This document shows positions 20,901 through 63,607 of a DNA stretch of 64,000 nucleotides, one piece after another. The notes under the pieces are model-generated. The model saw nothing but the letters and a program-made list of their open reading frames with translations, did no database searches and had not been told where the DNA came from. Where the stretch lies: assembly GCF_004210375.1 (NCBI RefSeq), contig NC_134827.1, positions 100,735,285 to 100,799,284 on the forward strand. The letters are read 5' to 3'. This DNA comes from Tachypleus tridentatus. Taxonomy: Eukaryota > Arthropoda > Merostomata > Xiphosura > Limulidae. Positions within the stretch are counted from its first letter, which is position 1; each line of letters starts with the position of its first letter. The translations under genes and the position numbers were made by a program.

Positions 20901-23900
20901 AAAAAACCAGGTTATTTATAACCAGTGTGTTTTAACAATGCATGATCTTGTTGAGAAGTCTACTATCAAACTCCATTCACGAGGCTTAAAAGTTAACCTT
21001 TTGCCTTAATGGGGTTAGCGAAACCTTCTCATTTCTTTAGCACAGCATCTACACCCAGCACTCTTAAGAGGAAATGTAGGTTCTAGTTCTGTGCATTTTT
21101 ATTATTATTACAAATGTTGTCTTGATGCTTTAATTCTGAATACGTGGAATTCACGGGTACACAGAAACTTTTAAAATAAGATATTTAGGCTTAAAGTGCA
21201 AAGTCAATTCTCTTAAAAGTAAAATATTCCGACTGTATTAAAATCCCTACATGCTACTTACTAAGAGTTCAACTAATAAAAACCTTACTTTTCTGTCAGA
21301 AATATTTATGAATATACTGAAATTAAATTTCAGATAATTTATCATCCATACATTTAACATACGTTGTGTGTGTGTGTGTGTGTGTAAATAAAAAGAAAGA
21401 AGAGACTAAAAGTTCACCATTCTTCCACAATATATATTCCTGTGCTGTACCTCTTAAGAGAAAGTTGTTTTACCTCTTGTGTACCAGGTGGTACAGATCC
21501 ATATTCATTTGTTAGAGGTCCTCCTCCCATATAGCTCCCACCTCCTCTGTTAACATTCTAAGTTAAGAAAAAAAAACAATCAAATAATAAACACCTCCTA
21601 ACACAAACATCCAAGTTTATTAAGTCACAGGTAAATAATCAACATAAACCATAAGTTTTTTTTTTTTTCAATGCAGTTCAACTGTAAATCAGCCAACAAC
21701 TTGTACACACACGAACAGGGTAGCTAAGAAAGCTATGTTCTGTAATACCACAAAAATCTTTAGATTACCCCCTCAAAAGTGTGTTCCAATGGTTATGTTT
21801 TACACAAGACCTAAACCTGGGAATGTTTCTAGTCTTAATAGCATTTGTTATTTATATTGTTGCTTATTACACACACAATCTAATAATGGTTCTCAAACCA
21901 GAAATTGATGCTTTATTGATAGCTATAAGCTATTTGTGCTGTGCCCACCATGGATATTAAAAAAACAACCTTAATTTGACATTTTAAGTCTCCAGACTTA
22001 CTGCTGAACCACCAGGGGACAGATTTAGTCTGATAATAACGTCATTCGACTGTTGATCACAACTTTTTTCACTAAATGTTTATAAGGCTAGCTTGCCAAG
22101 TAGAGTAAAATATATTTATGTCCTCAACTTCCAAGCCTACAAATTTGTCTGCACTCGCATCACATTTGACATGAATCAGTACGTTTCCCACACAAAACAA
22201 GTTCTTTATTTTGCTTCCACTCCATATCCTGTCAACACTAACAGTTCATTATATGGCAATAAATAACTGCGTGACTTTCTCAATGGAAATACCATAAAGT
22301 TTAGTTAGAGTTTCTTCTGAATTTTCCCCAATATCAGAACTTTCCACAATTTTTAGACTTGAAAAATAATCAGTGTTTCCACATTCTTTTCCAAATTCTA
22401 CACGTTAAAAACCATGCGATATGTACATTTATCAAGTTCAGTTTTCAGACCAATTCAATCTTCACAATTGTGATTCTCTGTAATTTTTGCTGATGGGACA
22501 CAATAGAAAGCATAAAATTTGCTAATTTACCTTAAAATAAGAGAAGGTAACTGATACAAGCTTTTATATTTTTACTTTTAAATATTAAAAAATGAACATA
22601 CAGAATCACATACCTCTATTTCTTTCTCTGTTAATAGATCCATTACTAACTGTTTGGCAAACTGTAAAAATAAAATAAGTATTGTTATCAAATTTATCAA
22701 TCTAGGGGAGAAAAAATTAATACAAACTGTTCACCAGTCTGTCAGACAAAACAAACTTAAAAACAAAATAATACAAGCTGTTCACCAGTCCAGACGAAAG
22801 AAACTTAAAAACAAAATAATACAAGCTGTTCACCAGTCCAGACGAAAGAAACTTAAAAACAAAATAATACAAGCTGTTCACCAGTCTGTCAGACAAAAGA
22901 AACTTAAAAACAAAATAATACAAGCTGTTCACCAGTCTGTCAGACAAAAGAAACTTAAAAACAAAATAATACAAGCTGTTCACCAGTCTGTCAGACAAAA
23001 GAAACTTAAAAACAAAATAATACAAGCTGTTCACCAGTCTGTCAGACAAAAGAAACTTAAAACAAAATAATACAAGCTGTTCACCAGTCTGTCAGACAAA
23101 ACAAACTTAAAAACAAAATAATACAAGCTGTTCACCAGTCTGTCAGACAAAACAAACTTAAAAACAAAATAATACAAGCTGTTCACCAGTCTGTCAGACA
23201 AAACAAACTTAAAAACAAAATAATACAAACTGTTCACCAGTCTGTCAGACAAAACAAATTTCAGAACAAAATAATACAAGCTGTTCACCAGTCTGTCAGA
23301 CGAAAGAAACTTAAAAACAATTCTACATAAACAGAAAAGAAACCCGCTCCAGCAACAAGAACAACGCACCTCACACTTTGAAGGATCTCCAGTAATTCTT
23401 AGTGGTTTGTCCATCCCAGTTTGTTGTGGGCTATCCTGAATCATAACCATTTTCACTGCAGCTCTTTCCTGGAAAACAATTCTTTCCCATCATTTTATAT
23501 TCAAAAGCCAATAAGAATGTATAACTACCTACAGACAAATCTCAAACATTTTTAAAGCACACAACAAAAGTAAATTTCACTCATTTCAACTCAAGTGAAA
23601 TTAAACAGTGCAGTTATTTAGGCTGATTTTATTATTATTAATCCAACTATTTAGCAACATATCCAATATTCAATGTTATTTGTCTGCCTATTTCCCAAAC
23701 TACCACCATTAACTGTCACTACAATCACAATCAGTGAATTTAACAAGTATGTTCAACTTGAAAATGTTTACTTTTTTCACTTATAATTGTTTCACAAGGT
23801 GTGTTATTTTTTTCAGTTTCAGTAATAATTTTTGCTACTAGCCATAGTTGCTAATCCTACACTTCACAAGCTAACTTCATATGACAATACTGTGGTTTCA

Positions 23901-42563: not shown

Positions 42564-43198
42564 CTTTCTCTCGTAGATGCCGTCTTATTGTTCTTGAGCT
42601 GCATTCTGCGTCCGTAAGAGTCTTAATCTGGTTCGTCTGGTATCTTGCCGGACAACCCGTCGAATCCTCCTGCTCAACGCCGGCGAAATTTTCTTGGGCC
42701 GACTACTTGAAATTCTCGTTCCGTATCCTTTAGGGTCTTTTAAGAAATTTTTAATAGCAGCTTTACTGCGTCCAAACTCACCAGCGATGGCACGTTGAGA
42801 GAGACCTTGCTTTTGCAGCTCGACAATTCTGCCACGTTCAAACTCTATCAACTTTTCAGCCTTTGCCATGTTTTTACCCAAGGTAACACAGGAGATGTCA
42901 GTGGAAGATGTTGACAACACTAATGCTTGAACACAAATGACTAAATTTCGTTACATGTTTACCGGTTAACGCTTAGTTTCAGTATGGTCTTGAACTTTTG
43001 ACCAGCTAGTATTTAGGCTAACTTTATAGTGTTCACATTTTCCCTATTAAATGCTAAAAAAGGTTTTTATTTTTATTTTTCCTTTTCTCATTTTCATCTT
43101 TCGAAGCTCTACTCAAATTAGTGGTTGAGTCTAACAACGCAAAATGCATATTTTTTTTCTTTTTGTTCATTGGCCTTAAGATTTTGGCCAGCAGTGTA
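42564..43198 (-). mobile_element. Truncated Tc1/mariner element with transposase N-terminus
   Basis: Retains one terminal repeat (ending GGCCAGCAGTGTA) and the start of a Tc1-like transposase read leftward from 42868, beginning [20 protein letters not shown], whose helix-turn-helix includes [19 protein letters not shown]. The copy breaks off at about 42564, within the sequence that lies at 46237 in the longer copy, so the catalytic DDE part is missing. Confidence 0.85.
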
Positions 43199-45289: not shown

Positions 45290-46860
45290 TACAGTGCTGG
45301 CCAAAATCTTAAGGCCAATGAACATAAAGAAAAAAATTTGCATTTTGCGTTGTTAGACTTAACCACTTATTTGAGTAGAGCTTCGAAAGATGAAAAAAAA
45401 AAAATAAAAAAAAAAAAAAAAAAACTTTTTGCATTTAATAGGAAAAATGTGAACACTATGAAGTTAGCCTAAATACTAGCTGGTCAAAAGTTTAAGACCA
45501 TACCAAAAAGAAGTCCTAAACAAGGTAGGAAATGCCCAACAAGAGGTTTCAGTAGTGAGTTACACGCCCGTCATTGCGTTTAACTTCAAACATTCCCTTT
45601 GGCATGGTCGATAAAGTGTTTGCAGAAGGTTGGCTGGAATGTTATTTCAAGTAGTGAAGATGGCTTCACGAAGATCATGCACTGTTTGGAATTGACGTCC
45701 ATTTCTATAGACCTCTCTTGCCTTCCACCTCCAGATATTTTCACTAGGGTTCAGTTCGGGCGAACACGCTGGATGGCCCAAAAGAATCACGTTATTCGAC
45801 ACGAAAAAGTCCTTTGTCCTGCGGGCATTGTGGATTGCAGCGTTGTCCTGCTGAAGGATTCAGTCACTTCCACATAAGCGAGGGCCTTCAGTCAATAAGG
45901 ATGCTCTCTCCAATATGCCAATGTAGCCAGCTGCTGTTCGATGCCCCTGTATAACCTGAAGCTCCATTGTTTCATGGAAGGAGAAAGCACCCCAGATCAT
46001 GATGAAGCCTCCTTCACTGTGCCGTGTAGAAAATGTCTCTGGTGGGATATCCTTATCGTGCCAGTAACGTTGGAAGCCATCTGGACCATCCAGGTTAAAT
46101 TTTCTCTCGTCAGAGAACAAAACCTTCGTCCACGTTTTTACGTCCCATGTTTGGTGCTTCTTAGCAAAGTTTAACCGAGCTGTTTCGTGGTGTGGAAGGA
46201 GTCGTGGTCTTTTAAGACGTTTATGGTTTTTAAAGCCTTTCTCTCGTAGATGCCGTCTTATTGTTCTTGAGCTGCATTCTGCGTCCTTAAGGGCCTTAAT
46301 CTGGTTCGGCTGGTATCTTGCCGGACAACCCGTCGAATCTTCCTGCTCAACGCCGGCGAAATTTTCTTGGGCCGACCACTTGAAATTCTCGTTCCGTATC
46401 CCTTTTAAGAAATTTGCAACAGCAGTTTTACTACGCCCAATCCTACCAGCGATGGCACGTTGAGAGAGACCTTGCTTTTGCAGCTCGACAATTCTGCCAC
46501 ATTCAAATTCTATCAACTTTTCAGCCTTTGCCATGTTTTTACCAATGTAACACAGGAGATGTCAGTGCGAGATGTTGAAAACGCTAATGCTTGAACACAA
46601 ATGACTAAATTTCGTTACGTGTTTACTGATTAACGCTTCGTTTCAGTGTGGTCTTCAACTTTTGACCAGCTAGTATTTAGGCTAATTTCATAGTGTTCAC
46701 GTTTTCCAATTAAATGGTAAAAAGGTTTTTTATTTTTATTTTCCCTTTTCTAATTTTCATATTTCGAAGCTCTACTCAAATAAGTGGTTAAGTCTAACAA
46801 CGCAAAATGCATATTTTTTTCTTTATGTTCATTGGCCTTAAGATTTTGGCCGGCAGTATA
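45290..46860 (-). mobile_element. Tc1/mariner element, near full length, about 1.57 kb
   Basis: Terminal repeats TACAGTGCTGGCCAAAATC (left) and GATTTTGGCCGGCAGTATA (right) flank a long reverse-oriented transposase gene. TA dinucleotides bound the ends. A poly-A-rich tract at about 45395-45425 lies inside the left end. Three related copies occur in this window. Confidence 0.92.
45590..46534 (-). pseudogene. Tc1-like transposase, broken
   Basis: Begins [20 protein letters not shown] with a paired helix-turn-helix ([19 protein letters not shown]). The catalytic region shows [15 protein letters not shown] (first Asp), QQDNAAIHNARR (second Asp) and HPACSPELNPSENIW (Glu), a Tc1-type DDE triad. The open frame stops at 45860; the part with the second Asp and the Glu is in another frame, and a further stop follows LREAIFTT. 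It is therefore not functional as sequenced. Codons 1-224 are at 45860-46534. Confidence 0.9.
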
Positions 46861-47826: not shown

Positions 47827-47945
47827 TGATGACGAGAAACCCACTTGACGTAAAAATGTTTGGTTAAAAACGGCTGGTGTGAGTACTAATACTTTAATTA
47901 AAATACAGAACAACGTTTCGACCTTCTTAGGTCATATTCAGGTTA
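47827..47945 (-). mobile_element. Penelope-like terminal fragment
   Basis: Contains ATGACGAGAAACCCACTTG and, further on, ACAACGTTTCGACCTTCTTA with the hammerhead-like block in reverse. It is related to the termini of the elements at 51257 and 60689 but more diverged, and has no coding part. Confidence 0.6.
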
Positions 47946-51243: not shown

Positions 51244-51326
51244 TTTCATATAAACATCAGTGATGTCGAGAAACCCACTTGTTGAGAAATTTATATGCAA
51301 AAACGACTTGTTTGGGTTGAGAAAAA

Positions 51327-52941
51327 GCAGATAAAGGTAACGCTATAGTCATAATGAACACGAATGAATACATCCAAAAAATGAATAACATCCTATCAGA
51401 CACGAACAAATTTAAACCAATACACACAAATCCAACAAAGACACACGAGACGCAACTGAACAAATTGCTACTGCAAATAAAAAAAGCCAACACAATTACA
51501 CAAACACTTTATTCCTACCTACGTAAAACCGACTCACGCACACCGCAAATATACGGCATCCCCAAACCTCATAAACCAGATTGTCCATTACGACCAATAA
51601 TGTCCACATGTGAATCGTTTACTTACAATCTTGATAAATACATAGCATGGGCATTCTCCAAATATGTAACATCAGCCAGCTCATTCATCAAAGACTCTTT
51701 TAATCTAAAGTCTAATCTAAATCAACTTAATCATAAAGCCTTAATGGCCAGTTTCGATGTTATATCCCTCTTTACAGAAGTTCCAACCACTGAAGCCTGC
51801 AAGATAGTCTTAGAACTCTATATCTGAGACCCTAACCCAACTGTAGACATTCCTAGCAACCAACTAGCAACCCTCATAGAATTCACCACGATGAAGACAA
51901 ACTTCATGTTCAACAACCACAACTATATACAAACAAATGGCCTAAGCATGGGCAACCCAGTATCACCAGTTCTAGCCATTATTTTTATGACACAAGTTGA
52001 AACACAAGCAATTAACACAGCATTACATCCACCACTATACTGGTACAGATATGTAGATGACACGGTTGCGGGATTCAAACCTACAGAATACACACTTAAT
52101 TTTTTCAATCACATTAACTCTATACATCCCAACATTAACTTTACATGTGAACAGGAATAAAGCAATCAAATATCATTTCTTAACCTCAAAATTACAAGAA
52201 CCGACACACAATTCAAAACAGAAATCCACCGAAAAATCACCCATACTGGACTATACATTCCTTGGGACTCAGCACATGAAACAAAACAAAAACTCAACAT
52301 ACTAAGAAACCAAATAAACACAGTCATAAAACTATGCTCACCAGATAAAATTAACGATGAATTAGACAAAATAAAACAATACTTCATCAACATCAATAAG
52401 TTTCCTCCACAAACTGTAGAAAACATTATACGCACACACCTTGACAGAAAGCAAAATCAACCAACAAAAGTAAATATATCTCACGAATCAAAAAAATCAC
52501 GAAACCATATACTGCTGTATTCCTGACATCAGCAGACAAATAACCAACATTTGGCAAAAACTAGTAACAAAATATGACATTCCAGTTAATACCAAATTTA
52601 TTCAAAACCCAGGCACAAAACTGAGGTCTATACTATGTAAAAACTACACTGACAAATACCACACCAACATTATTTACAAAATACAATGTGATAACTGCCA
52701 CGACTTCTATATTGGAGAAACAAGTAGAAATATGGAAACCAGATTTAAAGAACATAGAAAGTCACCTTCAAACGTTTTCGAACACTGCAAGTCAAATAAA
52801 CACAACATAACCATAGAAAACACTCAAATACTAAATAAAGAAACAAACATAAACAAACGCAAAATTAAAGAAGCCTTACTTATACAACAACTTAAACCCA
52901 AAATAAACCAATATAAAGGAACGCCTTTATACCTATATTAA
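51327..52941 (+). pseudogene. Penelope-like reverse transcriptase with C-terminal GIY-YIG endonuclease, broken
   Basis: RT motifs in order: ADKGNAIVIMNT, IYGIPKPHKPDCPLRPIMS, ASFDVISLFTEVPT (motif A Asp), GLSMGNPVSPVLA (motif B), YWYRYVDDT (motif C), FLNLKITR. The C-terminus shows IYKIQCDNCHDFYIGETSR and HCKSNKHNI, the GIY-YIG endonuclease typical of Penelope-like elements. Damage: TGA at about 51825, TAA at about 52158 and a frameshift near 52490-52510; the endonuclease part is in a different frame from the RT. Penelope RTs are related to telomerase and prime from nicked chromosomal DNA. Confidence 0.92.
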
Positions 52942-53069
52942 TATAATAAAATAAATAAAATTATATATTCAAACATCTAATACCTCCCTTTACATTCCGA
53001 CACTCAGTTACACAACCCCTTTCAAACATGTGGTCAGCTTCCGGTCAGTTACCTCTTTCTTTGTGAACC

Positions 53070-53100
53070 TAACGATGACCGAAGAAGGTCGAAACGTTGT
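53070..53100 (+). ncRNA. Hammerhead-ribozyme-like block in the Penelope terminus
   Basis: CGATGACCGAAGAAGGTCGA followed by AAC. GACC/GGTC can form helix II around GAAGAA-type loop bases and GAAAC matches the conserved 3' core. The 5' core (CUGANGA) is imperfect here. Penelope-like elements are known to carry hammerhead motifs in their terminal repeats, so this is probably a decayed one. Confidence 0.35.
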
Positions 53101-53169
53101 TCGCTCTTCTATGTAAAATATTTTCTCAACCCAAACGAGCCGTTTTTGCATATAAATTTCATATAAACA

Positions 53170-54603: not shown

Positions 54604-54858
54604 TATGCTTTTCCTACGTTATGTGTAATAATTTAATTATAAATTAGGTTTCCGAAACAACACTTATAGTATATTTCAAAAATATAATTTGTTTGGAATT
54701 AAAGTGTTAAAATATATTTAGAAACGAGAATTAGTTAGTTTGTGTTATCCAATCATATTCGCAACGAACTCAGCTATTACCAGAAGCCGTAAGTATAAAT
54801 ATGTATAATAGTATGTTGACATATAATACTTTTGTATGTTTTTTATATTTTATTTTAG

Positions 54859-55110
54859 TTACACACTGTGATGTCACTGTCGAAAAATTGGAAGGGTGGA
54901 TTTCCACACCAAATTACCCGTTGGAATATAATGATTTTCTATCTTGTTCTTACATCATTCATCGTTTTAGTAGCGACATCTGTGTAGTAGATATGACAAT
55001 TGTTGATTTCGATTTGGAAAAGACTCCCGGTTGTCGGGGAGATTATCTTGATTTGAATGTGGACATTCCTGGTCAGAAAATTTGCGGTAGTTTAATGTCC
55101 GGCACCGAAA
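54859..55110 (+). CDS. CUB gene exon a: first half of CUB1
   Basis: The acceptor ATTTTATTTTAG and donor GAAA|GTAAGT give 252 nt, phase 1-1 like the other CUB exons. It encodes CDV, GWISTPNYPLEYNDFLSC, ICVVDMTIVDFDLEKTPGC and GDYLDL. An alternative is a start at ATG 54801, which would give a hydrophobic leader (FVCFLYFILV) ahead of the domain; the phase symmetry favours splicing. Confidence 0.8.
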
Positions 55111-58100
55111 GTAAGTGTTTTACAATTTTAATTTTTGTTAAGATACTTTCAGAAAAGAAAAATGATCTATTTAAAAACAAAATTTTAAAAAATTAGGTCA
55201 ACACCCTTATTTTAATGTAGTTGGTTAATTATTAAATCCATTAGGTTAATTCAGTCATGCAAACTACTTTTGTGAGAGCTTTTTCTTTTGGAACAAAATG
55301 AAAGAATCGAGAATTGTGACTTTAATGGAAATTGAGATCGTTTAGCGAAACATAGATTGTAATTTACCTTAAATTAATTGTACTTACTTCCAGTGATAAG
55401 GCCCAGTATGGCCAGGTGGTTAAGGCACACCACTCGTAATCTGAGGGTCGCGGGTTCGAATCCACGTAACACCAAACATGCTCGCCCTTTCAGCCGTGGG
55501 GGCGTTATAATATGACGCTCAATCCCACTATTCGTTGGTAAAAAAGTAGCCCAAAAGTTGGCGGTGGGTGGTATTGACTGGTTACCTTCCCTCTAGTCTT
55601 GCACTGTAAAATTAGGAACTTTTAGCGCAAATAGCCCTGGTGTAGCTTTGCGTGAAATTCAAAACAAACCATCATGTGATAAATGCTATGAAAATATGTC
55701 TTCGCATAAGGTATTAAATGTAACAACTATTAAAATAAATGACGCGTAACAACAGCAACAGAAAGAAAAATAACTGAAACGTTGTCTATATATATATATA
55801 TATTTTTTTTAAATAGAGAAACTGAAGTTTTGCCAGGAAAGAGGAGTTTGACGTTGCGGTTTAAAAGCGATGGGATAAATAATCGAAACGGATTCATGAT
55901 ACAACTTAAACAAGTCCCAAACTCCTGTTCAGATGAAGATGTTAGACGAACAGGTGGGGCGTTCAATGTTATTTCTTATCAGAAATAAAATATAACTTAC
56001 TAAAAAGATGCTGAATTATTTTAACTTCTAAATAAATATAAAATGATAAATATTATATTGAATTAATAAAATTAATTGCTTCTTATTTTAAAACGAAAAT
56101 ATGACAACTTTACACAAAATTGAGTATGTATTTAACTGCTCACCAGTTAACCCAAACATAATGAAATACCAATGGTCTAATTATGATACATATAAATTGA
56201 TAGCAGAAGACCATTTTAAATTACAAACGTACAATTTAATACTAAATGTACCCCAGAAATTAAAGTTCATTAGTAATTATTTTTTGAAATCGGTAAATCA
56301 CATTTTAAGGCATTTTTATAGATAGGTTGGATGCTCCAAACATTTATTATTAATATCAAGGGAATCACAGAACAAAATAGTTTGGAAACCACTGCACTAA
56401 ATAAGAGTTTCTGTATTTTTTTTTCTCAAGTTAGGAGTAGTTGTATAGAGACGACGTGTGAAAATTACCTCTTATGTTACCTATTGCCGAATCTTTCTGG
56501 GGTATACAAAGTAGAATTTATATGTTCTATTTGCATACACTTGTAAGTATTCGAACAGTTCGTCCTCAAAAGGGACAATATGTGTCCAAATAACCAATCT
56601 CGTTATTTGTATAAATGATAAAAACCTGATAATCCGAGTGATTTTGGAAGACTACCTTATTTTATTAGGGATGAAGACCTATCAGAAATCAGGTTCTTGG
56701 TTTTCTAATTGTAATCTATTTGCTTTATGTAAGCTACGAGCTTCAAGAATCCAGAATGAATATATCAGTAAAGAAATCCATGCCAATCAGATGTAGAAAA
56801 GGAACGAGTGATTAACATTAAAGTTTGAAACGTGATTTTGGTCATATAATGGGTTACAAGTTTAAAACGAGGCATAACTGTAATAGCTTACAATATTAGG
56901 AATTGCCACTTTTGAGTTAAAAGTAATCCAACTCTGTTATTATTACTTAAAAAAAAACAACTAAAACACACATTTTCTTTACACAAGTTCATGCCAAGCT
57001 AGACTACTGACTTTGAAACAAATACTTTTTACTTTTGCTTTTAATTTACTGGATTAGTGCATAGCTTTCACAGTAAAAAGTTGTGATATATGTATGTACA
57101 CAAATTTTTGTTTGTACACTCTTAACATTCTAAGAACCCTGAAACAAAAAAGTTACTGAGTCAAAACTGAAAACAAATAGGCCTAATATTCATGATTCTA
57201 TCATGATGTTTTGTACAATAAACACTGTAATTCTAATTAATTCATGGCTAGCCCAGTTTATTTGTACACAGGTTATATTGAGTTGATTATTTTCTTTGTT
57301 ATTTATTGTTTTGTTTGGAAATATGTTATACGATTCATAACTTTTGTTTTATATTTTTTCGTCTGGAATGACAACCTAAAGCCGTTCAGTTAGCTCTAAT
57401 AGTTATATTTTCTTATCCATTCGTTTTCATATACGTTTTACTGTGGTATAAGGCATTTTAGGTATTTCATTACACTTTTAATTATCCAACTGTACTAATA
57501 GTTTTAATACCTAACACAGGAGGGCGCGACTGTGATCAGCACATTCAAGAGTTTATCGGTCGAATTACGACGCCCAATTTTCCTGGACGTTATGGACCAA
57601 ACCAAGAATGTGTTTTCTCCATTCAACGTGCCGATTCTCACATCTGTCAGGTGGAGCTCGAGTTTCGAGTGTTTGACCTGGAGCCAAGCTGGGGTCGGTG
57701 CGATAAGGACTTTCTGGAGCTCCCGAACAGTTCTCGGCTCTGTAATGGAAGACACAAACAGATACGTAAGAACAGATGCATTAAATTATTAATTTCGACT
57801 TATAGTGGTCTGGTGTTTATAGGTGTTTGTATATTTATTTTTAAATTTATATAAAATATTCAAATTCACGGACAGATATAACATCTCTTGCATACCACTA
57901 TAACAGTTTTATGGACATGTTTTCTCTTCAGCATGATGACCATTTTATCGTGTGTAATATCTTAGTAAGCATTTTAGTCTATTTTGTAACAGAAAATGAC
58001 TTAGAAGCTGCGAAAGAAAGGAAAAGAAGAATTAGAATACAGGCATATTAAAATCCATTGTAAAATAATTATTTGTTTATAAGTGCAACAATACAGAAAG

Positions 58101-59900
58101 GGCTATTTTTTTAAATTCCATTGCTCTTCCCGCTAAGCCACCAGATGGCCTCTGTAATAATAATAATATTAAAGAGTTTATTTCGGAATCTTCGTTCAAG
58201 GCTACACAAGGGATATTTTTCAAATCCAAGAGTTCTTGCTGAGCCACCAGATGGCATTTAGATTGATAATAATAATCAAGTGTGGCCCGGCATGGACAGA
58301 TGGTTAAGGCACTCGACTCGTAATCCGAGGGTTACGGGTTCGAATCCCCGTTATACCAAACATGCTCGTCCTTTTAGCCGTGGGAGCGTTATAATGTGAC
58401 GGTCAATTCCACTATTCGTTGGTAAAAGAGTAGTCCAAGAGTTAGCGGTGGATGGTGATGACTAGCTGCCTTCCCTATAGTCTTACAGTGCGAACCCTCA
58501 TATTACACGTCGCACGCTTTAACACGCTTGACCATGCCAGGCCTGTATGTATAAGTGTACTTTTGAATGTAAATAGGAAATTATTTACCGTAACCTTACC
58601 ATACTAGTGAAAACAAACGTCTAAACATCAAAAAAAACAGATGAAACCCTCCACGAAGGTCTATGAATAATTTTGTGAGAAGTAAAGAAATAAAGTTGTT
58701 TGCTAAATCCATGTGGGTTTTACAAGTGGGTTTTCTCGTCATCACGGATTATTAAATCCATGAGGACCCATGTAACAAAACCAGAAGTTAATTGTTAGGG
58801 AGTTTTTATAGTTCACATGTAACATAGATTCGTCGTTAGTGTTTCAAATTTTTACGCATATGATTGAAATCGTGCTGATTGACGAATAAATGAGTTACAA
58901 CGTGTGCAACTCTGTAAAGAGATTTTTCAAAATGAACTATAAATTACTCGTCCAAGCCGATTAGTAACACAGTGCCACGGACAAGTTAATTCATTCTCAA
59001 TAATACCTAACTTCAGTGCTAGATGTCAGTACCATACATGCATTTGACCTACTTACAAATTGTTTCACTTTCGATCCAAAATGGCGTTACGAAAAAGTTA
59101 CAAAATGTCTTCATTAGAGTTGTATTGTAGCAGCTGAAATACTTGGCAGTCAACAGGTTAAATAAGTAATCTATTACGTATGGAATACTTTAAAAAGTTT
59201 TTTCGTCTACTTGTTGGATTTGTTGTAATTAGAAATTCTAACAGAAAAGAAATGTAAGGACGTGTTTTTATTCATATTGTTTTCTGATGTAAACCATGAC
59301 TTTACAACACCAGGGATAAACCAATAAAAGGTTTCAACAATCCCTATAGGCATTTTAAATAATAGTGTTTGTGTTCTCCTTATGGCAAATCCACATCAGG
59401 CTATCTGCTGAGCTCACCGAGAGGGAATCGAACCCCTAATTTTGGCGTTGCAACTCCGTAGACTTACTGCTGTACTAGCGGGGGGCTTTTAAATAATAGA
59501 CAAATTATTAAGGAGTCAAACAACGTGGCTTTCTGCAATCCCACAAAAAAGAGATTGACAAACTTGATATATATATATTACCATTGTACTTTAAATTATT
59601 AACAAAATTATTCATACTTTTGTAATTCAATCGTCTAACCTTTTAAATATTAGATTTTTTGTTTTAAATCGATAATTTTGAAATGCTTCCAATATTTCGT
59701 AGTGTAAATTGGAAATTATTTTCCTGTAAAAGTGAATGTTTAAATTTGATTTTTATTCACAGAGAGACTTGACTTTCCCCACGATAAAAACGTTTTGACA
59801 TTGAAATTTGTTAGTGATAGCAATGGATCAGGAACTGGTTTCGACATTGTTGTTCGCCAACTTCAGGAGTTTTGCAGATTGCCAGCCGTGCCGCCTTCTA
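54859..59900 (+). CDS. Tandem CUB-domain secreted or membrane protein (four exons seen, partial)
   Basis: CUB domains are extracellular beta-sandwich modules of about 110 residues used in protein binding (tolloids, cubilin, complement proteases and many arthropod orphan proteins). Exons 54859-55110, 55819-55953, 57520-57765 and 59763-59900 join in frame, all phase 1-1, to give two CUB domains of two exons each. CUB1 runs from CDVTVEKLEGWISTPNYP to QLKQVPNSC; CUB2 from CDQHIQEF-GRITTPNFP to VVRQLQEFC. Conserved Cys pairs are present in both. The last exon ends at a donor in phase 1, so more exons lie beyond the window. The specific orthologue is not recognised. Confidence 0.85.
55400..55670 (+). 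mobile_element. SINE1 in the first CUB intron, 7-bp target duplication
   Basis: Full SINE1 (GGCCAGGTGGTTAAGGCA, GGGTTCGAATCCACG, CTTTGCGTGAAATTC). GTGATAA occurs just before it and again about ten bases after the visible tail. Confidence 0.88.
55819..55953 (+). CDS. CUB gene exon b: second half of CUB1
   Basis: The acceptor is AAATAGAG and the donor ACAG|GTGGGG; 135 nt, phase 1-1. It encodes KTEVLPGKRSLTLRFKSDG, NGFMIQLKQVPNSC and DEDVRRTG. The acceptor AG is the second of two adjacent AGs; using the first would break the frame. Confidence 0.82.
55989..57519 (+). other. CUB gene intron (exons b-c)
   Basis: AT-rich, with short ORFs only. A hAT-type terminus-like GTTTGGAAACCACTG occurs near 56378 without a visible partner. 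Confidence 0.45.
57520..57765 (+). CDS. CUB gene exon c: first half of CUB2
   Basis: The acceptor CTAACACAG and donor ATAC|GTAAGA give 246 nt, phase 1-1. It encodes GRDCDQHIQEFIGRITTPNF, ECVFSIQRADSHICQVELEF, RVFDLEPSWGRCDKDFLEL and SRLCNG. Richer in GC and CpG than its flanks. Confidence 0.92.
58283..58544. mobile_element. SINE1 joined head-to-head with an inverted SINE1 head
   Basis: A plus-strand SINE1 (GGCCCGGCATGGACAGATGG onward) runs to about 58490 and stops at CTTACAGTG. It continues into CGAACCCTCATATTACACGT and GCTTGACCATGCCAGGCC, the reverse complement of the same tRNA-like head (58491-58544). Confidence 0.85.
58714..58752 (+). mobile_element. 39-bp Penelope-like terminal insertion with 10-bp target duplication
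   Basis: Contains ACAAGTGGGTTTTCTCGTCA and a CACGGATTATT end, the same terminus as the foldback at 60689-60976. TAAATCCATG at 58704-58713 is repeated at 58753-58762. It is an extremely 5'-truncated copy that marks the true element end. Confidence 0.85.
59390..59492 (-). mobile_element. SINE2 copy
   Basis: Reverse SINE2: ATCAGGCTATCTGCTGAGCT, GGGAATCGAACCCC (B-box-like inverse), CGTAGACTTACTGCTG. Confidence 0.65.
59763..59900 (+). CDS. CUB gene exon d: second half of CUB2
   Basis: The acceptor TTATTCACAG and donor TCTA|GTAAGT give 138 nt, phase 1-1. It encodes DKNVLTLKFVSDSNGSGTGF and DIVVRQLQEFCRLPAVPPS. The next exon is not in the window; a candidate at 61248 falls inside a hAT element and was rejected. 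Confidence 0.9.
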
Positions 59901-59955: not shown

Positions 59956-60223
59956 TTTGTTTGAATTTCACGCAAAGCTACACGAGGGTTATCTGCACTA
60001 GCCGTCCCTAATTTAGCAGTGTAAGACTAGAGGGAAGGTAGCTAGTCATCACCACCCACCGCCAACACTTGGGTTACTTTTTTACCAACAAATAGTGGGA
60101 TTGACCGTCACATTATAATGCCCCAACGGCTAAAAGGACGAGCATGTTTGGTGCAACGGGGATCCAACCTGCGACCCTCAGATTACGAGTCAAGCGCCTT
60201 AATCACCTGGCCATGCCGAGCTT
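59956..60223 (-). mobile_element. SINE1 in the CUB intron with perfect 12-bp target duplication
   Basis: Reverse SINE1 from TTTGTTTGAATTTCACGCAA to CTGGCCATGCCGAGC. TGTACAATAAGG at 59944-59955 recurs at 60224-60235. It lies 55 bp after the last CUB exon seen. Confidence 0.92.
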
Positions 60224-60545: not shown

Positions 60546-60688
60546 TAAAACTTTATCATCGGTTTTTATGTGTATGTGATTAGGGATTTAATATAAATTC
60601 TTATTTAACAATATTTATGAATAACACTTTAAATTTTATTGAATGACAAATATCTTCAATTATTAAAAAAAAAAAAAGTCATTATCAT

Positions 60689-60976
60689 TTTTATATGCAA
60701 AAACGGCTCGTTTGGGCTGAGAAAACACTTTTACATAGAAGAGCGAACAACGTTTCGACCTTCTTCTCTCATCAAGGAAACCTTTCATAGTACTGTTAAT
60801 GGAGACATGTAGCCTATGAATTCTGATGCTTGAAACTCTAAATTTATTTTATTTACATGACCGAAGAAGGTCGAAACGTTGTTCGCTCTTCTATGTAAAA
60901 GTTTTCTCAGCCCAAACGAGCCGTTTTTGCATATAAATTTTCTCAACAAGTGGGTTTCTCGTCATCACTGATTATT
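60689..60976. mobile_element. Penelope-derived foldback enclosing 91 bp of hAT sequence, 13-bp target duplication
   Basis: Left arm about 60693-60766 and right arm about 60863-60936 are inverse copies (GGCTCGTTTGGGCTGAGAAAA, GAGCGAACAACGTTTCGACC). The middle 60768-60858 equals 61891-61981 with one difference. The right end continues to CTCGTCATCACTGATTATT. AAGTCATTATCAT at 60676-60688 is repeated at 60977-60989. Confidence 0.9.
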
Positions 60977-61014
60977 AAGTCATTATCATATTTAATGTTT
61001 TTTTATAATTCAAA

Positions 61015-61070
61015 TAAGCCTCTAGCGGCACATCTGCGAACTTACAACTATAGAAACTTTGTCTTGATAC
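61015..61070 (+). mobile_element. SINE2, left half, split by the hAT insertion
   Basis: CCTCTAGCGGCACATCTGCG and TAGAAACTTTGTCTTGATAC are the SINE2 head up to the B-box; the remainder resumes at 63608 after the hAT element. Confidence 0.75.
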
Positions 61071-63599
61071 CATGGTTGCCAGATGATTTTCTTGGATTTC
61101 ACTAAACAATTTTCTAAAATTTACCAAAAATTCTTGGATTTTACCAAGTTAAATAAAAAACTAACCTTATTTTATTGAAAACTTGGTGTTTTTTTCTTCA
61201 TTGGTGCACAATTTTAGTTTCCTTCATCTGTTTGTATTATTTTTCAGGCGGTTGCCATTCTTTACATGTCGTGTTTTCTAAAAGATTTTTACCATATAAT
61301 ACAGTATCTTGTGTTTCCGTACTTAGCCGGGAACGGTTTTATACCTTTATATTGTTCACCAAAGATAAACAGCCTTTCTGCTGCAGCTGAAGAATGAGAC
61401 AATGATAGTAAGTTTATCATTAATTTGGAGCTAATTGGGAAACGAAATTTATCTCCACATTTTTCTTGAGAAATATAATACCAGTATTTTTCTGGTTTTG
61501 AAATGTCATTCTCTTGTAAAGTTAACTATCTCGTTTCTCTATTGATGTCTTAACACTCTTTTTCCTCAATAATATTAGGATATTTCATGGCCAATGGGAT
61601 AATTGAACGTGGCTGTCCTTGAGACACATTTCCTGGATCTAAAGCTTCAAATAGTTGTAAATACGTGAGCATACCAGATGATACAAACCGTTTGTACATT
61701 TCCTTGCTTAGTATGATATAAAAATTCAGTGTCCAAAGCTGAAATTTTCTTCGAGTTCTTTGGTTTGGATTTTGGAAGAATATTCCAGAAAGATACTTTC
61801 AGTTCTTGCTCACGATATATTTCATTTAAGGGAAGGTAAATTGAAGGATCATTGATGTTAACCTTCGATATATCCGCATCTTTTTATAAACTCATCAAGG
61901 AAACCTTTCATAGTACTGTTAATGGAGACATGTAGCCTATGAATTCTGATGCTTGAAACTGTAAATTTATTTTATTTACATATGGCAGAATAAAAGTAAG
62001 AAATGCGAAGTACATTTTTACAATTGGATTCTGTAATCCTTTTAGTATTGTAGATACTAAAGTCATCCCATCTTCTAATGTCACTGAAGTGATGGCCATT
62101 GATTCAGTTGTCTTTCTACCACATGCTGAAGTGATAACCATCGAGTATAGCTATGATGTAAAATCGTTTTAGGATCTGGGTAAATTCCTGAAATTCTACG
62201 TATTCAGATAATCTCTATGGGTTGTTTGACAAATATGAATAAATATTTCTAGTCAGCTCCTCCAAGGAAGTTGGAAGTTCAGAACATGCATAGGGTATAC
62301 ATAAATACATTGAATGGGATACACAATCTTGTACAAAGAGATATGGTACTTTCGGCTTTAGAAGACTTTGAACACCAATTTTTGACCCCATCATTACACT
62401 TGCATAACCTATCATATTTTTAAATGGAATTCCATGTGTTTCTTTAAAAAAATTACTATAGAACTGTAAATGCCTTGGGCAGTACAACAATTTATTTCCA
62501 AAAAGAATTAAAAAATTCTCAGCTGTTTTTTGAATATTGCTACAATAAAATCTAGCTATTAGAACAAGTTGTTTTTTGTAGATACATCTGTACTTTCATC
62601 AATAATTTAAAAAATATTATTTATAATTGTGCTATAAGTATTTCCAAGTTTTCCTCACCAATGACATTACGAAAAATAACTGTTCCTTTTGTTCTTGCAC
62701 ACTTAGTTCCATTAGCAATTTTAGAATCAGGGCATGCATTAGGTAGAAAGCCTGGAAGATAATCTAGTATTGAAATGGGGAGATTGTTTTCTGTCACAAA
62801 TACACACATTTTCAGTTCAGTGGAAACCACTTGAGACATGTTATATGAAGAAGCAGAAGGCCGTAAACAGTCAGTTACTTTAGAAGTCTGGGCACTTGCT
62901 TTAATATTTTTTAAACGTTTTTCACTGTTAAGATGTTTCTAAAGTATGGTAACACTCCCAGATAAGTCGCAACTGCATATTTTACAAAATGACTTATTTA
63001 AGGTTTTCGGACTTTGACTAAAACAACCAAACTTAGGATCATTAAGCCATTTTTGTGGCAACTAACGTTTCTGTTAGTAACTAGGCCTAAGTAGGCTTAT
63101 TTTCTTGCATGGACTTTCTACTAAATCACTTTCCTTATCGTTCCTTTTCTCAGCCATTGTGATCTGTGGGTTAGATTAAATGTAAATTAAATAAAATTAT
63201 AAAAATTAAGCAAAACACAAATGTAAAATTAAACAATACATTACACTGTAAACGAAGACGGAACTTACGAGTTACAACTCACGAAATCATAACAAAAGCT
63301 ACAGTATATGAAAACAAGACTAACAGAGACGCCGGTGAATCATCATTGTTTGAAATTATCTTGCGCCTTATAACGCAATCTAAATGTTTAAAACATTTAG
63401 ACATAAAACTCGCTCATATAAAGCATTATCACAAGATCAAATTTCACGTAAAGGAGGCAATAAATTTGAAAATCTTTTATTGGCAATGCAACAGGTAAAT
63501 TAGCAAAACTTACCAAATTTCATGAAGGTTTTACCAAATTTATCAAACAGAACTAAATTTACCAAATTTGGTAAAACATTACCTAATTCGGCAATATTG
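61071..63599 (-). mobile_element. hAT transposon, about 2.5 kb, 8-bp target duplication
   Basis: Ends CATGGTTGCC (left) and GGCAATATTG (right; inverse CAATATTGCC), matching at seven of ten positions. CTTGATAC occurs at 61063-61070 and 63600-63607, the 8-bp duplication expected of hAT. Both subterminal regions repeat TTACCAAATTTGGTAA-like words. It is inserted into the B-box of a SINE2. Confidence 0.93.
61340..63157 (-). pseudogene. hAT transposase with BED-like zinc finger, broken
   Basis: Starts MAEKRNDKESDLVESPCKK at 63157. A BED-like finger follows (FCKICSCDL...KHLNSEKR). Later blocks are KCARTKGTVIFRNVIGEENL, a DCVSHSMYLCIPYACSELP segment (family CH-L motif), LQNPIVKMYFAFLTFILPYV and a C-terminal SAAAERLF-FG (dimerisation region). 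These lie in several frames with internal stops, so the gene is dead. No transposase activity is expected. Confidence 0.88.
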
Positions 63600-63607
63600 C
63601 TTGATAC

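Follow-up and report, generated by a model that had tools for sequence, protein, structure and literature searches.

A 288-bp insertion in the genome of Tachypleus tridentatus consists of two inverted copies of the 3′ terminus of a Penelope-like element (PLE) with 91 bp of a neighbouring hAT transposon between them. With a probability of roughly two in three, it arose by two-sided target-primed reverse transcription in which one cDNA end was extended on a nearby chromosomal template before joining. The arms, the target duplication, the asymmetry of the tail and the identity of the donor are established by the observations given below. Positions refer to the window, i.e. the whole stretch of 64,000 nucleotides that was analysed, unless a contig is named.

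Structure of the fold-back unit

The unit (60689–60976) is bracketed by an exact 13-bp direct repeat, AAGTCATTATCAT, which begins at 60676 and again at 60977 and forms the left (60676–60688) and right (60977–60989) target site duplications. In a chance control with 20,000 random site pairs at a spacing of 301 bp in the window, an exact match of at least 13 within 3 bases was found for 60 pairs (0.3%). In the unit, an inverted PLE arm is followed by a 91-bp core and then by a second PLE arm, in direct orientation and extended by 39 bp. A single base (60689) separates the left target duplication from the left arm (60690–60766, minus strand), which is an inverted PLE 3′ terminus with a tailless outer end at PLE reference position 1830. 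One further base (T, 60767), judged by eye to match neither the donor nor the PLE, lies at the border to the non-PLE filler (60768–60858, plus strand). The right arm (60859–60937, plus strand) is again the PLE 3′ terminus and is followed by the PLE tail (60938–60976, plus strand, to reference position 1869), which is present at the right end only. The two arms pair as inverted repeats at 100% identity between 60690–60726 and 60901–60937 and at 92% between 60721–60772 and 60857–60908, and their inner ends are almost symmetric, at PLE positions 1747–1756 and 1748.

At the left junction there is no clean microhomology: either two PLE bases were replaced beside the motif TCATC, or one untemplated base was added. 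Alternatively, the left switch may have occurred within the TCATC common to donor and PLE. At the right junction the PLE similarity runs 2 bases (AT) back into the donor-matching stretch. Repeat searches of the window thus bore out the arms, the core, the donor and the 13-bp target duplication of the original prediction. The single integration event that it proposed is also the simplest reading, as one target duplication surrounds the whole unit. The hAT fragment within the unit has no likely function.

The inserted 91 bp were copied from the neighbouring hAT element

The filler is a direct repeat of 61891–61981 (plus strand), in the same orientation and with one mismatch. This donor starts 901 bp past the right target duplication, inside a decayed hAT copy whose coding strand is minus and whose approximate span, 61069–63600, was obtained by alignment with ten other genomic copies. 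The hAT copy is a frameshifted pseudogene; its match to Dimer_Tnp_hAT in 61292–61525 (minus strand; E = 3.8e-4) scores 20.6 bits, just below the curated cut-off of 21.4. With the PLE insertion located some 80 bp beyond the hAT span, other hAT copies provide no usable empty site. A genome search with the hAT region returned, among the best 40 of 80 candidates, the local copy (100%), a segmental duplicate of it (99%), and others at 77–86%.

When the 91 bp themselves were searched, as the original prediction had proposed, the best 40 of 53 candidates comprised four matches at 98–100% and 36 at 78–87%. The four are the unit, the donor, and the duplicate of each, and no other match exceeded 87%. 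The alignment with the ten others reveals a 7-bp deletion and four substitutions that are private to the local copy and recur in the insert, which shows that the local hAT copy, with its deletion already present, was the template. At the sole mismatch between insert and donor the donor base is private, and the insert has a C as in nine of the ten other copies; judging from this alignment, the donor most likely changed by one base after copying. The template, originally given as hAT RNA or DNA, is narrowed by the private changes to the hAT copy that lies about 0.9 kb away on the same chromosome. An RNA template transcribed from an unlinked hAT was considered and rejected, since the insert bears the private changes that distinguish the local copy from the ten others aligned. 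By hand arithmetic, the probability that a random genomic position lies within 1.2 kb of a given site is about 1e-6.

The same event could have involved a switch to RNA, with the neighbouring hAT supplying a nascent or read-through transcript onto which the PLE reverse transcriptase jumped from PLE RNA. A hAT-sense template would be needed to extend the left cDNA and, as the hAT reads on the minus strand, a sense transcript would fit; LINE-1 chimeras with other RNAs are likewise known (PMC13174262, in the part available). However, use of the adjoining copy among the 40 hAT places scored is left unexplained by free RNA, though nascent RNA would account for it, and the donor is a frameshifted pseudogene. 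We regard such a switch as rather unlikely, and infer that the template was chromosomal DNA rather than a nascent local transcript.

A segmental duplicate contains both the unit and its donor

The sequence from 59020 of the window to at least 74000 (in continued coordinates) recurs in inverted orientation at C3:111174642–111189611, on the same contig and 10.4 Mb away, with 98.8% identity. This duplicate of at least 15 kb includes the fold-back unit as well as the hAT donor, so the second copy of the unit in the assembly is due to segmental duplication. Comparison of duplicate and window across about 2.9 kb that include the unit gave a single substitution, against 21 bases that are missing or extra. 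To judge from the sequences, this pattern of few substitutions may be that expected of a very young duplication or of a retained haplotype with read errors. Doubling within a chromosome, target duplication included, is also seen in other fold-backs (L015/L016, L023/L024, L026/L046, and L027/L076).

The structure and the junctions of the unit are identical in both assembled copies, and this double assembly makes a local assembly error unlikely. An artefact would be in keeping with copies that differ almost exclusively by single missing or extra bases, like unpolished reads; given that both copies hold the structure and that the fold-back architecture recurs genome-wide, we consider it very improbable.

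Presence of the unit at two places might also suggest that the 91 bp belong to a non-autonomous PLE family that carries hAT sequence and is mobile as a unit. This is hardly credible, because the second copy lies within the duplicated block that includes the donor, because the 91 bp occur in no other fold-back examined, with other matches at 87% or less among the best 40 of 53, and because the insert has the private changes of the local hAT copy. Capture of a mobile kind implies that the captured sequence has moved with the termini to new sites, and the one other copy found is the segmental duplicate. The original prediction was to fall if the 91 bp occurred within the arms of all family members; among the fold-backs examined they were found in the unit and its segmental duplicate only.

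The arms belong to a Penelope-like element family

The arm sequence also terminates a longer copy of the same family that bears a reverse transcriptase (51256–53160, plus strand). This copy consists of an inverted, tailed arm piece, a 5′-truncated open reading frame with the reverse transcriptase, and a tailless 3′ arm, and it is flanked by a 13-bp target duplication, TTTCATATAAACA. RVT_1 was matched in the window at 51828–52160 (E = 7.5e-8) and in the genomic copy L006 (E = 6.7e-12). Inverted terminal copies (pseudo-LTRs) with a 30–40-nt tail at one end, as are expected of a PLE, are present, and so is a target site duplication around the whole insertion (13 bp in the unit). The arm family is thus a Penelope-like element, an assignment made by the reverse transcriptase domain, the termini and the target duplication.

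Pfam gave no GIY-YIG endonuclease match in 52474–52941 or in the endonuclease part of L013; by eye, the stretch CDNCHDFYIGETSR looks like a candidate for this motif. Searches with the Rfam hammerhead models returned no match at the gathering score in the window and none at E ≤ 5 in 46–64 kb, a threshold that a diverged motif could escape; to our knowledge, the hammerhead is not the defining criterion of PLEs. Such a motif has been reported for PLEs (PMC11167929, in part). A hammerhead ribozyme in the arms was also considered as the maker of the junction and was rejected, there being no Rfam match.

Two other PLE remnants were seen in the window. A tail-only insertion of about 39 bp at 58704–58762, with a 10-bp repeat, TAAATCCATG, at 58704 and 58753, is consistent with a cDNA that halted almost immediately, the tail having been copied first. 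On the minus strand at 47827–47933 lies a terminus from a diverged PLE family, which shares about 76% identity with the arm.

Fold-backs are ordinary insertions of this family

The genome searched comprises 2,167,478,450 bases (2.17 Gb). Three samples were taken as the best matches to the whole unit, to the tailless arm (with no tail in the query) and to the tail, and in each the best 40 places were scored, out of 1960, 978 and 416 candidates, respectively. One of the 40 places scored in the unit sample (C3:97540215) was left out. Among the 38 loci L002–L030 and L042–L050, eight were without a clear fold-back. The tailless-arm matches represent 39 loci, seven of them, including the fold-back unit, already in the set; the 32 newly taken loci consist of 20 head-to-head pairs (L076 being a duplicate) and 12 with a single arm within about 400 bp. 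The tail sample comprised 19 new loci, two of which (on C8) were left out. Duplicates (L002, L016, L024, L046, L076, and L114) were removed before counting. This yielded at least 62 distinct arm-spacer-arm fold-backs in the family, namely 47 that include the unit and the element at 51 kb, and 15 from the tail sample. Insertions of this architecture are therefore ordinary in this PLE family.

Target duplications were identified in 43 of the 47 fold-backs, the exceptions being L008, L081, L092, and L089, the last of which was covered up to one outer end only. They were likewise found in 13 of 16 tail-sample stretches, with none for L110, L113, and its duplicate L114. Their lengths in the family are 9–16 bp, with 35 of the 43 at 13–15 bp. 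As a control, the left and right ends of 42 fold-backs, each of which has a duplication, were mismatched: a match of at least 9 bases was seen in 5 of the 1722 pairs and one of at least 12 in none, whereas true pairs reached at least 10 bases in 41 of the 42.

Typically, a tail of about 37 nt is present at one outer end and absent from the other. The pairing of tails was judged on the tailless-arm sample only, since the other two samples had been chosen with the tail in the query. There, exactly one tailed end was seen in 16 of 17 fold-backs with both outer ends readable (p = 1.4e-4 by hand arithmetic, if ends are independent at 50%). L008 in the unit sample and L081 in the tailless-arm sample are apparently tailed at both ends, and an outer end of L092 is at an unusual position. 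These observations suggest that two start sites are paired within one insertion, one per strand.

Inner junctions and fillers

Inner junctions were readable in 59 fold-backs (45 + 14), leaving out L081, the element at 51 kb, and L110, which is too scrambled. Microhomology of 1–7 bp was found in 30 and a blunt junction in 5; fillers of 1–9 bp were present in 18, fillers of 10–21 bp in 4, and longer ones in 2, these being L011 (54 bp) and the fold-back unit (91 bp). Apparently larger spacers in L008, L009, L010, L026 and L030 consist of PLE body. In L100, L104 and L108 the filler, too, is largely PLE sequence (longest exact match 12/18, 9/9 and 11/13 bases), and the longest exact PLE match covers 9/14 bases in L020 and 6/8 in L007. 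Non-PLE filler of at least 15 bp is thus restricted to three of the 59 junctions (the unit, L011, and L083), and the search for fold-backs with different captured inserts, part of the original prediction, has in this way produced two further cases. Identical inner junctions with different target duplications are shared by L099, L109 and L112 (5-bp microhomology) and by L003, L049 and L090 (7-bp microhomology). These two sets represent either junction hot spots or fold-backs moving as units, and the junctions of these six fold-backs accordingly need not all be independent joins.

L083 (C1:130548790–130549120) contains a 21-bp non-PLE filler for which a genome search with 0–1 mismatches found one other copy, at C1:130622066–130622086, 73 kb away on the same chromosome. 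These 21 bases alone prove little, as a control with the reversed pattern also gave one match. Their other copy, however, flanks an older, 5′-truncated PLE arm (L097, C1:130621800–130622350). In its outer part the tailless arm of L083 has the alleles of the reference copy, and at its inner end it shows the exact truncation point of the older copy followed by that copy's flank. It thus seems that synthesis of the L083 cDNA switched, in a stretch of about 50 bp common to both templates, from the element RNA to the chromosome around the older copy. The filler of L011 (spacer positions 1181–1234, C3:117393985–117394038) is 54 bp long and is formed by two repeats of a unit of about 26 bp. No source for it was found within about 4.5 kb on either side, and the genome held no other match at 0–1 mismatches. 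Filler copied from an identifiable nearby template, as expected of templated fillers, is therefore seen in the unit and, as a second case, in L083, and the only two filler donors traced are the neighbouring hAT copy and the L097 flank.

Palindromes are known to break. A two-step origin, in which an ordinary fold-back was inserted first and its palindromic centre was later broken and repaired with the nearby 91 bp, would draw on this proneness to breakage, and it would suit both the almost symmetric ends of the arms (PLE 1747–1756 and 1748) and a local donor. Near-symmetric arm ends are, however, also observed with little or no filler (L028 and L043), and in L083 the capture proceeded via the PLE cDNA's own homology. 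We therefore think it improbable, slightly more so than a switch to a hAT transcript.

A model for integration

In the preferred reading, extension of a cDNA end during two-sided target-primed reverse transcription, a putative endonuclease-bearing PLE would make cuts about 13 bp apart in the two strands of an AT-rich site, and the 3′ region of the PLE RNA would be reverse-transcribed from both exposed ends. At one end synthesis would start at the distal site, by which the tail is kept, and at the other at the proximal site, which leaves no tail. The outcome would be two short cDNA arms arranged head to head; such arms within one target duplication are what priming on both strands would give. 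Next, one cDNA, most likely the tailless left arm, would be extended at its 3′ end, at or near TCATC, by 91 nt on the hAT copy, the template lying 0.9 kb rightward, and the extended cDNA would join the other arm at a 2-nt match. We propose the tailless arm as the extended one because it is the tailless arm of L083 that leads into filler and because TCATC, too, is on the tailless side; the switch is accordingly assigned to it with some probability, and either the PLE reverse transcriptase or a host polymerase may have been the agent.

A template switch thus stands as the best explanation of the chimera. The return switch onto the opposite strand that had been proposed along with it is not needed, as head-to-head arms, which priming on both strands would produce, are normal in the family. 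To speak of a gene-capture mechanism is an overstatement, since what was captured here is 91 bp of a frameshifted pseudogene with no sign of further mobility. PLE termini that enclose captured unrelated DNA had been reported before (PMC3846280, in part). Joining of the hAT sequence looks like a by-product of repair with neighbouring DNA and not like a dedicated device for gene capture.

More generally, and only tentatively, PLE integration might be obligatorily two-sided, with a start site that differs per strand, one tailed and the other tailless, and free cDNA ends might copy any template in cis to which they anneal, from less than 1 kb to tens of kb away, before the two halves are joined. 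If true, PLE fold-backs would be a fossil record of the template search by broken chromosome ends.

Relation to known systems

The Pen PLEs of Adineta vaga have inverted termini, one of them with a 31-bp tail, and target duplications of 8–10 bp in the cases quoted. Microhomology at 5′ junctions and capture of unrelated sequence between PLE termini within one target duplication are also described there. The captures are long (0.9–1.5 kb spacers, a whole gene) or of untraced source, whereas here a 91-bp capture is traced to one neighbour by private mutations and the target duplications are 9–16 bp (all for A. vaga from PMC3846280, in part).

For the purified Poseidon PLE of Anolis carolinensis, the accessible part of PMC11167929 reports that both strands are cut and extended in vitro, and that the RNA has two adjacent internal sites at which reverse transcription begins, the interval between them corresponding to the tail. 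Two-strand priming and two start sites that account for the tail are thus common to Poseidon and the present family. In contrast, that source reports no strand difference in start site for Poseidon, whereas one tailed and one tailless end are nearly always paired here; how the two cDNAs are joined is not dealt with in that part. The same source states that the later steps of PLE integration, after first-strand synthesis, have yet to be validated.

Alternative (polymerase theta) end joining in Drosophila produces microhomology junctions and insertions with possible templates in the flanks (PMC2895639, in part), and resembles the present junctions in both respects. Its templates are sought beside the break according to that source, whereas here the distance is 0.9 kb for the 91 nt and 73 kb for the 21 nt. 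A further difference is that one partner here is a retrotransposon cDNA. In LINE-1 twin priming, or 5′ inversion (cf. PMC2837659), two primings, one at either end of a single target site, give inverted copies. PLE fold-backs resemble its products in having inverted copies within one target duplication. They differ in that both PLE arms begin at the RNA's own 3′ start sites, and both halves are consequently the same terminus. Among open-access titles and the beginnings of abstracts, no PLE filler traced to a neighbour and no rule of one tailed and one tailless end was found; subscription papers were outside this survey, and a prior description is possible. The part of PMC12910113 available likewise contains nothing on traced PLE filler or tail pairing.

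The fold-backs give in vivo support for PLE priming on both strands, to which the genome adds the pairing of start sites and the extension of a cDNA end in cis. To judge from the unit and L083, chromosomal neighbours may serve as templates for extending a cDNA end, and host DNA enclosed by PLE termini could have arisen in this simple way. In itself the hAT fragment is of modest importance; more useful is the handle on PLE integration provided by many termini of one family and many short fold-backs in which target duplications, start sites and junctions can be read.

Other features of the window

A remnant of a Tc1-type transposase is present at 45860–46561 (HTH_Tnp_Tc3_2, E = 4.7e-11), and 42585–42950 appears similar by eye. 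Repetitive open reading frames on both strands at 22582–23489 are apparently a tandem repeat array. Two open reading frames with CUB domains, at 54735–55196 and 57462–57854, likely belong to a host gene. Three stretches (55406–55472, 58292–58356, and 60151–60216) are tRNA-like, with a weak match to an Rfam plastid model below the cut-off, and we take them to be probably a tRNA-derived SINE.
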